Shown here one piece after another: positions 28,805-32,375 of a DNA stretch of 45,405 nt (positions within the stretch are counted from its first letter, which is position 1; every line of letters begins with the position of its first letter). Where the stretch lies: NCBI GenBank assembly GCA_002692205.1, contig NZJM01000031.1, positions 1 to 45,405 on the forward strand. Direction: 5' to 3'. Position numbers and translations under genes: made by a program. The notes beneath the pieces are model-generated. The model made no database searches, had not been told where the DNA came from, and was given only the letters and a program-made list of their open reading frames with translations. This stretch comes from Legionellales bacterium. GTDB taxonomy: Bacteria; Pseudomonadota; Gammaproteobacteria; Eutrophobiales; Eutrophobiaceae.

Positions 28805-29137
28805 TTAAGGGCGATTATTTGTTGGTTGAACTAAAATCCATGGCTTTATAACGACTGCCCAAACTATCATGTTATTTTTATGCCATGCTTTTGCAAGCTC
28901 ATCGCTAACTTTTTCTACGTATTTTTTTTTCATCCACTCTTTTATCTTCTCTTCGTTATCAATGGATAATTGATGCGCAACATCTATCAAATCAAGATTA
29001 GACGAAACGTATATTACTGTACCTTTCGCAAAAAAAGGTAGCAGTTCTCTCCAGGGAGTTTTCGAGGTTTCTAAGTTTAATTTGTGGTGGCTAACTTCAG
29101 ACTTTTTATCTTCGGTATTATTTAAGCCAGAACTCAT
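28805..29137 (-). CDS. DUF2288 family protein
   Basis: TPWRELLPFFAKGTVIYVSSNLDLIDVAHQLSIDNEEKIKEWMKKKYVEKVSDELAKAW...VVIKPWILVQP. Confidence 0.8.
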   Translation of the reverse strand: MSSGLNNTEDKKSEVSHHKLNLETSKTPWRELLPFFAKGTVIYVSSNLDLIDVAHQLSIDNEEKIKEWMKKKYVEKVSDELAKAWHKNNMIVWAVVIKPWILVQPTNNRP

Positions 29138-30042
29138 TTTTTTGATTTTGATATTACTTCCAAAACATGTTTGATTATTTCATCTGGAGCTTCTCTGTGA
29201 ATTTGATGCCCACTGTTACTAATGATAGTTTGCCAGCTATTTCTACTTAATTTTAGTAAATCTTTTTGCATTTCCTGCCATTCATTTTCTAAAGAGATTC
29301 CATCGAGAACAGGTAATTGCCCTTTTCCTCTAGATAACACCGCTATTGGTATGTCTTTTATTGGCCCAGCATGCTTTACTTGATAAGCACTTTCCTTGAA
29401 ATATTTGAGTTCACCCATTTGAGCAAAAGTTGCTTTTCTGCTTGAATTTAAAAAGTACCATTTTTTTTCAAAAGGAGTGAAATCATCTGGAGCGAAACCT
29501 TTTCGCCCTGTAATCAGAGGTTTTTTCTCGACTTTGTCTAACGCGGATAATCGATATATTTGCTCTGGGTGGGAAGAGTCTACTAGAACTAACCCTAAGA
29601 TATTCTTTGGAAATTTGGCAGCTAAATAGCGTGCTGTAAATCCACCAAATGAGTGTCCTACGACTATAAACGGACCGGGGATTTCAGCTTTTTTTATCAG
29701 AAGATTCAACTCATGAACAATCGTTGCTGTGGTTCTCATTCCTCTACCCGGATCACTCCATCCATAGCCTGCTCTGTCATATACGCAAACACGAGCACTT
29801 TCAGATAAACGCTTAGCTATTCTATACCAGCTTGCAGATGACTCAGCAATTCCGACATCGATTAGAATAGTTGGTGATTCACTACCAAGACAGTCTATGT
29901 ACATTGTCTGGAATCCAATATTTATGAAACGTCCAGGCGGAGTAAACGGGACATCAGTCGCATATACGTTGGTACTAAGGGGTAGCGCTAAAAAAATAGC
30001 GATAATAATAAAGCATGATTTTTTTGAGATTGACATTATCAT
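29134..30042 (-). CDS. secreted alpha/beta hydrolase
   Basis: Signal peptide; VCVYDRAGYGWSDPG, FIVVGHSFGGFTARYLA (GHSFGG), GHQIHREAP. Confidence 0.88.
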   Translation of the reverse strand: MIMSISKKSCFIIIAIFLALPLSTNVYATDVPFTPPGRFINIGFQTMYIDCLGSESPTILIDVGIAESSASWYRIAKRLSESARVCVYDRAGYGWSDPGRGMRTTATIVHELNLLIKKAEIPGPFIVVGHSFGGFTARYLAAKFPKNILGLVLVDSSHPEQIYRLSALDKVEKKPLITGRKGFAPDDFTPFEKKWYFLNSSRKATFAQMGELKYFKESAYQVKHAGPIKDIPIAVLSRGKGQLPVLDGISLENEWQEMQKDLLKLSRNSWQTIISNSGHQIHREAPDEIIKHVLEVISKSKK

Positions 30043-31028
30043 TTCTCAACAACAATATTTTCAGCGGTCACCACTTCAGTAAGTGCTTTTTCAAGTATCG
30101 ATCTTGCATGCCCAGTCATGTTACCAAGCAACCTATGTAATTCAGCATCTTTTTTATATCTAGTTATACATTCTTCACTGTAAGCCTCAAATTGAAGTAA
30201 CTTAATTATAATACTAGATAAATGTTGAGGGCACTCACATTTAATAGTTGATGATGCTGACGATAATTGTATTAGTTGTTTGGTCGTGTAGATCTTTTTT
30301 GGCGAAGGGCCACGAACATCAGAATTAGTTTTTACTGGTGCTATTGGCTGTTTATTTTTAGCAAGGTTCCTAATTTCAGTTTTAAGATGTTCTGTAGAAA
30401 TTGGAGCTTGAAAAAACACAAAACTGTTTTGACTTAATTTCTTTTTAGTTGAGTTATTCATGAAACCATATATCAGTATTAACTGGCTTGCACCAGATTC
30501 TCTATATATCTTTTCTATACTACTAACGTGATCCCCTTGTACTGTTGGAAACTCCATAACCAGCATATCAATTTTTTCTGTTTTATTTTTATCATGGAAT
30601 TCTTCTTCGTTTCTAAAAATACCAGAGAAATAGAAATTAGAATCAACATTATTTGAGTATTCTAATTGTAGAGATAGGACATCACCTATAGCCACAACAT
30701 TACTCTTTCTTTGCATATCAGATATTTCAACAAGTCTGCTTCCTTTACTTGAAAACTCAAGACGCTGACTCAATTCCTCGTTATTTAGTTTAGCTATAGT
30801 CCCGATAGAATGTCCTTTATCAACAAGTAATTTAAGTAGTGTCAGTCGATTTATATCTTCTCTTTTATAAAGTCTGTCTGCTTTTTCAGAACGGCAGGGC
30901 ACGACGACGCTATAACGTCTTTCCCAGATACGAAGTGTATCGACGGGAATATTTGTTATTCGCGAAACGACACCGATTTTAAATGTATTTGATAAATCGG
31001 AAGTTAATACTTCAGTTGAATAAGCCAT
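30039..31028 (-). CDS. MerR-family regulator of the CarA/CarH/LitR type with degenerate C-terminal cobalamin-like domain
   Basis: FKIGVVSRITNIPVDTLRIWERRYSVVVPCRSEKADRLYKREDINRLTLLKLLVDKGHSIGTIAKLNNEEL; likely start ATG 31028 with AAAGGA RBS (longer ORF from GTG 31058). Confidence 0.85.
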   Translation of the reverse strand: MAYSTEVLTSDLSNTFKIGVVSRITNIPVDTLRIWERRYSVVVPCRSEKADRLYKREDINRLTLLKLLVDKGHSIGTIAKLNNEELSQRLEFSSKGSRLVEISDMQRKSNVVAIGDVLSLQLEYSNNVDSNFYFSGIFRNEEEFHDKNKTEKIDMLVMEFPTVQGDHVSSIEKIYRESGASQLILIYGFMNNSTKKKLSQNSFVFFQAPISTEHLKTEIRNLAKNKQPIAPVKTNSDVRGPSPKKIYTTKQLIQLSSASSTIKCECPQHLSSIIIKLLQFEAYSEECITRYKKDAELHRLLGNMTGHARSILEKALTEVVTAENIVVEK

Positions 31029-31050: not shown

Positions 31051-31079
31051 ATGGACACAATATAGACAGAATATGGACA
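31051..31079 (-). promoter_or_regulatory. operator-like array of three 11-bp direct repeats
   Basis: Minus strand TGTCCATATTC TGTCTATATTG TGTCCAT; cores at 31073-31079, 31062-31068, 31051-31057. Confidence 0.7.
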
Positions 31080-31279
31080 ATAGTCGATGCCTATCGGATA
31101 TCGTCCTAGTCAAAAAGAGCTTCTTATTGTTATTTATTACTTAAACTATTGTTTAAATTAATATTTTTATAATAAATCTTGTCATGGACAAAGATTGGAT
31201 AATGATGAATTTATCAAATATTGTTTTAATTTAAATAAATACAATTGATTAAAATAAACTGCAGGATTAAATTGAATGT

Positions 31280-31843
31280 ATGACTACTCAGCCTGTAAAT
31301 ATTGAAAAATTAATCACGTCTAGACGAACAATCCACAATTTTATTCCAAATAAGATCCCAGATGAGTCAGTGATTAAGAGAGCTATTGAAACTGCTTGCT
31401 GGGCTCCCAATCATCATTTGACAGAACCATGGCATTTTTATTTATTGGGAGCTGCAACAATTACCAGTATCTGCGATTTAAATAAAAAACTTGTGACTAT
31501 TGCAAGCGGTGAAGATGCAGCAGAAAAAAAATATTTACGTTGGTTGAGTATTCCAGGTTGGATAATAGTTACATCTAAAAGATCTAATGATGAGATTATT
31601 TTTAACGAGGACTATGCCGCATGTTGTTGTGCCATACAAAACCTCATGCTTTCCTTATGGAGCAAAGGTATTGGGACAAAATGGTCAACGGGGGAGATTA
31701 CTAGAAATGATGAATTTTATGACATCGTTTGGGTCAACAGAGATTTAGAGAATATAATTGGTATTGTTTGGTACGGTTATCCCGAAGATGTGACGAAGAC
31801 AGTTAGAAAAAATCTATCGGAATCACTAACACAACTTCCATAA
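31280..31843 (+). CDS. nitroreductase family protein (YdjA-like)
   Basis: LITSRRTIHNFIPNKIPDESVIKRAIETACWAPNHHLTEPWHFYLL; ENIIGIVWYGYPED. Confidence 0.88.
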   Translation: MTTQPVNIEKLITSRRTIHNFIPNKIPDESVIKRAIETACWAPNHHLTEPWHFYLLGAATITSICDLNKKLVTIASGEDAAEKKYLRWLSIPGWIIVTSKRSNDEIIFNEDYAACCCAIQNLMLSLWSKGIGTKWSTGEITRNDEFYDIVWVNRDLENIIGIVWYGYPEDVTKTVRKNLSESLTQLP

Positions 31844-31850
31844 ATTTTTT

Positions 31851-32375
31851 CTAGTCACAGTCTCTTATCTTTATCCACTTTTCATGATTAATGCCTATTC
31901 TTTTTGCCTCTGTGTAATAATCTTCACAGAGTTGCGTTTTTGGGTTAATCGACCTAGATAATATCCAAGCATAGTTTAAATTCGGACCAATAACCAAAGC
32001 CATTGTATAATCTGCATCTAACTTTACTATGTTGTAAGCACCATAAAACGGCCAAAAGAAAGAAACTTTTAAACTTCCGATATTCTTTTTACCGATAAAA
32101 TAGGCTTTACCACTAGCTTCTTTCCACTTTCCGTTACTCGGATTTTTCCCATGATTAGTGACTTTAATGCCCCCGTCCTCTCTGAGTGAATAATTAGCAT
32201 AAACTTCAACTAAATTTCTCTCAAAACTATGGTCAAGTCGCGCTATCTCATGCCAGGTTCCAAGATACCTAGTAATATCAAAATTTGTAATCGGTTCTAC
32301 ATTAGCTGGTATTGAGGCACATCCTAATAAACTTATTATAAAAAAATGTATGGACAATATTTTTATGAAATTCAT
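31851..32375 (-). CDS. blc: lipocalin family lipoprotein (Blc-like)
   Basis: Lipobox LLGCAS; YLGTWHEIARLDHSFERNLVEVYANYSL; YAWILSRS. Confidence 0.88.
   Translation of the reverse strand: MNFIKILSIHFFIISLLGCASIPANVEPITNFDITRYLGTWHEIARLDHSFERNLVEVYANYSLREDGGIKVTNHGKNPSNGKWKEASGKAYFIGKKNIGSLKVSFFWPFYGAYNIVKLDADYTMALVIGPNLNYAWILSRSINPKTQLCEDYYTEAKRIGINHEKWIKIRDCD

Follow-up and report, generated by a model that had tools for sequence, protein, structure and literature searches.

Short direct repeats immediately upstream of a gene for a MerR-type regulator in a Legionellales bacterium (assembly GCA_002692205.1, contig NZJM01000031.1) raise the question of whether they form the operator of that very regulator, and of how far its likeness to CarH extends. 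All coordinates are those of the window, the whole stretch of 45,405 nucleotides that was analysed. The elements on which the argument turns are the following.

31051..31079, minus strand: tandem array of the cores TGTCCAT, TGTCTAT and TGTCCAT, parted by attc and attg, with an 11-bp period; proposed operator
31074..31079, minus strand: DR1, TGTCCA, in the -35/-10 spacer; kept in orthologues
31063..31068, minus strand: DR2, TGTCTA, its last two bases being the TA of the -10 element; identical in 14/14 aligned orthologues
31052..31057, minus strand: DR3, TGTCCA, close to where transcription is predicted to start; perfect in this genome only, not conserved
31082..31087, minus strand: predicted -35 element TCGACT of the regulator promoter, with a 17-bp spacer; TCGAC conserved
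31059..31064, minus strand: predicted -10 element TATATT, of which T, A and the last T do not vary among orthologues
30039..31028, minus strand: MerR-type regulator of 329 aa, with a helix-turn-helix (HTH) domain (13-97), a receiver/Rossmann-like domain (108-224) and a C-terminal helical domain with CECPQH (247-322)

The repeat array and the predicted promoter

The minus-strand letters 31079-31051 are TGTCCATATTCTGTCTATATTGTGTCCAT, in which three 7-bp cores start at 31079, 31068 and 31057, at start-to-start distances of 11 and 11 bp. The three repeats of exact 11-bp period reported in the preliminary description are thus borne out, whereas its distance of 23 bp to the start codon needs a slight correction, the last base of the array lying 22 bases before the ATG at 31028-31026. 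When up to three mismatches were allowed, TGTCYAT-N4-TGTCYAT-N4-TGTCYAT matched once in the window versus 0 matches in 100 dinucleotide shuffles. On the plus strand the array reads TGGACA-N5-TAGACA-N5-TGGACA, and three TNNACA at an 11-bp period occur on that strand once in the window versus 0.02 expected. The array is not a chance occurrence. It satisfies the published CarH repeat, nnnnTnnACAn (PMC9304148), three times in tandem on the plus strand. The genome search proposed in the preliminary description returned the two-repeat pattern TGTCYAT-N4-TGTCYAT at this site alone, as two overlapping matches, in the whole own genome (a 1.32-Mb MAG, 87% complete).

The array does not point to a genome-wide regulon, this promoter alone carrying it in the own genome. 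Other exact matches to the pair, in the four relatives inspected, all lie inside unrelated coding genes, which resemble those of triosephosphate isomerase, an ABC transporter and PEP carboxylase.

A consensus promoter scan of the minus strand returned TCGACT (31087-31082), 17 bp and TATATT (31064-31059). In so short a region shuffles give such matches equally often and the scan alone is no proof; the promoter call therefore rests on the conservation of alignment columns described below. DR1 lies inside the spacer, DR2 shares its last two bases with the beginning of the -10 element, and DR3 is near the expected start site. The conserved TCGAC upstream of the first repeat coincides with the -35 hexamer, and TCGACT may be a degenerate upstream half-repeat as well.

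Conservation of the repeats in orthologous promoters

An alignment of orthologous promoters, which the preliminary description had proposed as a check, shows that the repeat pair is kept. TGTCYA-N5-TGTCTA, exact or with 1-2 mismatches, is found upstream of 15/15 orthologous regulators, at the same place in the predicted sigma-70 promoter. These comprise 14 that were read, this regulator included, and L022; they belong to several genera and span 52-100% protein identity (the lowest about 52%). Best-pair scores were reached in at most 1% of 300 shuffle rounds of the same intergenic DNA at 13/14 loci, in a test that additionally took in the more distant L024. At L037 the automatic scan chose another, non-significant place; the pair AGTCGA-N5-TGTCTA, seen in the promoter alignment, was used there for the column alignment. 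In a gapless alignment of 14 orthologues on DR1, the top columns are TCGAC, TGTCNA, TGTCTA and TA....T of the -10 element, with most flanking columns poorly conserved; anchoring on TGTC-type pairs favours the repeat columns by construction, but the anchor included neither TCGAC nor the last T of the -10 element.

The third repeat (31051-31057) behaves differently. It is perfect here only, reads AGTCCA, a near-perfect form, in the congener G002 and TGTTTA in G001, and its place is taken in other genera by a different or a 10-bp-spaced sequence. Because it is decayed or absent elsewhere, the conserved unit, as read from the alignment, comprises two repeats and the TCGAC of the -35 element; the third repeat was added in a particular lineage. 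The three-repeat claim of the preliminary description thus holds for the array in this genome and not for its conservation. By eye, no clear correlation links the fourth repeat base (A versus C) to residues of the wing.

Could the conservation reflect the promoter alone, the 11-bp repetition being a coincidence? A sigma-70 promoter would explain the conserved TCGAC and TAnnnT, and the last TA of DR2 falls within the -10 element. However, TGTC of DR1 in the spacer and TGTC of DR2 just upstream of -10 are as conserved as the hexamers, and these bases are no requirement of a sigma-70 promoter. The same 11-bp spacing moreover recurs at distant homologues (see below), and we regard this explanation as highly improbable.

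Binding by a response regulator of the OmpR/PhoB type, a class that also uses direct repeats of 7 bp which contain TGTC and are parted by 4 bp, is very unlikely too. The Pho box, CTGTCAT-N4-CTGTMAY, does share the period and the TGTC core with the array (PMC3465305). Base 5 of the repeat, however, is never the A of the Pho box but C, T or G throughout the aligned orthologues, and the strict Pho-type TGTCAY-N5-TGTCAY has no match in the genus genomes searched. Response-regulator activators bind at or above -35, whereas the array sits on the spacer and the -10 element. It is the invariable lack of A at base 5, together with the confinement of the array to one promoter in the genome and its tracking of the MerR gene, that disfavours the Pho-box reading.

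Domain composition of the regulator

Pfam recognizes MerR_1/MerR alone in the regulator (MerR_1, 9.7e-15). In profile searches against PDB, its HTH matches CarH (3e-11) and the CarA DNA-binding domain (1e-10), and the best single-sequence PDB match of the HTH is 2jml, the DNA-binding domain of CarA (Myxococcus xanthus). The likeness to CarH does not extend over the rest of the chain. The DxHxxG motif of B12 binding, present in CarH, is found in 0/22 aligned homologues, and no B12-binding Pfam domain matches the regulator. The NCBIfam CarH equivalog scores 29.3 bits, over the HTH only, against a cutoff of 400. CarH is arranged as HTH, four-helix bundle and B12 Rossmann domain; here the order is HTH, receiver/Rossmann-like and helical, and the AlphaFold model likewise has HTH, alpha/beta and helical parts in this order (mean pLDDT 81, pTM 0.56). 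Foldseek with the whole chain lists CarH first with low TM-scores (0.2), and the middle domain alone retrieves receivers in domain-length matches (TM of target 0.6-0.7).

Many invariant residues fall in the C-terminal domain, among them C264, C266, P267, H269, E281, C287 and H298. This helical domain (residues 247-322) has no Pfam name; its CxCPxHL, C287 and H298 are invariant in 22/22 homologues. The pattern suggests, as a guess, a metal, heme or redox site or sensor.

Among the adjacent genes no photoreceptor partner was seen. A photolyase-family gene is present on another contig. A rhodopsin search gave no match, but the control genomes gave none either. The label 'CarH/LitR-like' of the preliminary description therefore suits the DNA-binding domain and not the whole protein, which has no B12 motif, another domain order and no link to light. 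The evidence supports a CarH-like mode of action on DNA, but not the identification of the protein as a CarH.

Repeats at distant homologues and paralogues

The 11-bp spacing is also found beyond the orthologues. We searched the 300-bp upstream regions of 23 homologues of roughly 30-42% identity for two TGTNNA on one strand, with 200 shuffle rounds. A pair at exactly 11 bp is present in 14/23 regions (shuffles: mean 0.4, maximum 3), a count whose independent part is slightly lower since L043 and L044 are close relatives. Every other spacing from 6 to 40 occurs in at most 4 of the 23. The cores include TGTATA, TGTACA, TGTTCA and TGTCCA. The own-genus paralogues L006, L009 and L010 have no array upstream; not every member of the family thus has a self-operator of this kind. 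One of them, L010 (G000:C38:14204-15154), is a second regulator in the own genome, 29% identical and of the same architecture, without the repeat array. An order-level genome search returned nothing beyond the family-level homologues.

The divergent nitroreductase gene and a palindrome

Three further features belong to the locus.

31280..31843, plus strand: nitroreductase-family gene, divergent; adjoins the regulator at the inspected orthologous loci
31179..31191, no strand: palindrome TTGTCCATGACAA (TTGTC-N3-GACAA), proposed nitroreductase-side operator; kept in most orthologous loci
29134..30042, minus strand: alpha/beta hydrolase gene, directly downstream of the regulator with a 4-base overlap; conserved neighbour, probably co-transcribed with the regulator

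The preliminary description placed the array in the nitroreductase promoter as well. This part of the proposal is weak: about 200 bp lie between the array and the nitroreductase start, and the separate palindrome is the likelier site on that side. For the nitroreductase itself, no -35/-10 element consistent across orthologues was found. Some 110 bp separate the palindrome from the array (across loci, the distance to DR1 is usually 100-112 bp), and the palindrome is built from inverted copies of the same half-site, TTGTC. The shared half-site suggests that the same regulator may act at the nitroreductase side in another geometry.

Nitroreductase orthologues are also found in relatives without the regulator, which allows the two kinds of loci to be compared over 420 bp upstream of the nitroreductase. 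An array-like pair (score 11+/12) is present in 12/16 loci with the regulator versus 0/13 without it (Fisher p 6e-5), and the palindrome (9+/10) in 10/16 versus 0/13 (Fisher p 4e-4), p values that are indicative since the loci are related. At several of the array-negative loci with a regulator, a longer gap puts the array beyond 420 bp. L119, whose regulator is on another contig, was left out.

A proposed model of autoregulation

We consider it likely that the array serves the 30039-31028 regulator as its autoregulatory operator, most probably a repressive one, bound head-to-tail as by CarH. The proposal that the regulator has its own operator here is supported by the position of the array in the promoter and its presence at 15/15 orthologues, its absence from nitroreductase promoters without a regulator and the 11-bp signature at distant homologues. 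Counting against it are the unconserved third repeat, a core unlike the TGTACA of Pseudomonas LitR operators, a repeat direction opposite to that in Thermus CarH and the own-genus paralogues without an array.

MerR-type HTH domains would dock head-to-tail on the 11-bp direct repeats, which read TGTCYA on the strand of the regulator and TRGACA on the opposite one, as in CarH. Since the first repeat fills the -35/-10 spacer and the second overlaps the -10 element, the bound protein should exclude RNA polymerase and thereby repress the regulator-hydrolase transcription unit, an effect deduced from position. The same protein, or its dimer, probably also binds TTGTC-N3-GACAA ~110 bp away and would control the divergent nitroreductase. 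Release would follow a signal that the receiver-like domain and the CxCPxH domain sense.

The regulator might instead bind the array and activate transcription from its own promoter or from the divergent one. Activation from within a promoter spacer is the mode of many MerR proteins, and the present spacer might be open to such remodelling. The array also lies upstream of the nitroreductase, about 200 bp before its start. MerR-activated promoters, however, have a spacer of 19-20 bp, which here is a normal 17 bp, and the repeats cover the -10 element and in this genome also the expected start site. Activation is thus unlikely, and repression is retained in the model.

Comparison with known regulators

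The CarH proteins of Thermus thermophilus and Bacillus megaterium (class I LitR) have the same type of MerR HTH at the N-terminus and tandem 11-bp direct repeats that overlap promoter elements (PMC9304148), as DR2 does here on the predicted -10 element. Relative to the promoter, the repeats here run in the opposite sense to those of Thermus CarH, in which a TnnACA repeat includes the -35 element. CarA acts without B12, a likeness to the present regulator, and yet retains a CarH-type B12 domain; the C-terminal half of the regulator gives no sequence match to that of CarA. The CarA operator has been described with inverted repeats plus direct repeats (PMC9304148). Class II LitR proteins of Pseudomonas (PplR1, PmlR2) are likewise MerR regulators without a usable B12 site, and they repress by occupying promoter elements (PMC9758184). 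They differ in their site, TGTACA-N12-TGTACA with an 18-bp period in place of TGTCYA at 11 bp, and in their partner, a short LOV protein, of which none was seen next to the regulator gene. BldC, with a MerR-type HTH, also binds head-to-tail direct repeats (PMC5859096); it is, unlike the present regulator, a 68-residue protein without effector domains, and its repeats are of about 9 bp (AATTxxxxC).

The CarH-style reading of DNA, head-to-tail on 11-bp repeats, is thus suggested not to be tied to B12 or to CarH proper, and to recur in a broader MerR set with a different sensor half. More tentatively, a widespread MerR subfamily may keep the CarH operator code of head-to-tail 11-bp repeats and have, where CarH carries its B12 photosensor, a receiver-like domain and an undescribed CxCPxH helical sensor for metal, heme or redox. 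Within a single intergenic region, such a regulator may recognize two kinds of site: its own gene would be controlled through direct repeats, and the divergent flavoenzyme gene through a palindrome made of the same half-site. The array offers a ready candidate site for finding the signal of this uncharacterised sensor domain, and it may allow operators of related regulators to be predicted from sequence alone.

Variation of the gene neighbourhood

In the congener G005 (L007 1489-1641), the regulator is cut to its last 46 residues beside an intact nitroreductase, and the intergenic region with both operators is gone; this remnant reflects either gene loss or a MAG assembly artefact. At L030 and L032 the nitroreductase and the regulator are about 1 kb apart, an interval that may hold an additional gene between their promoters, and the array stays with the regulator. 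A lipocalin gene (window 31851-32375) lies beside the nitroreductase and is near the locus in most relatives; in other genera it is found on the other side of the hydrolase.
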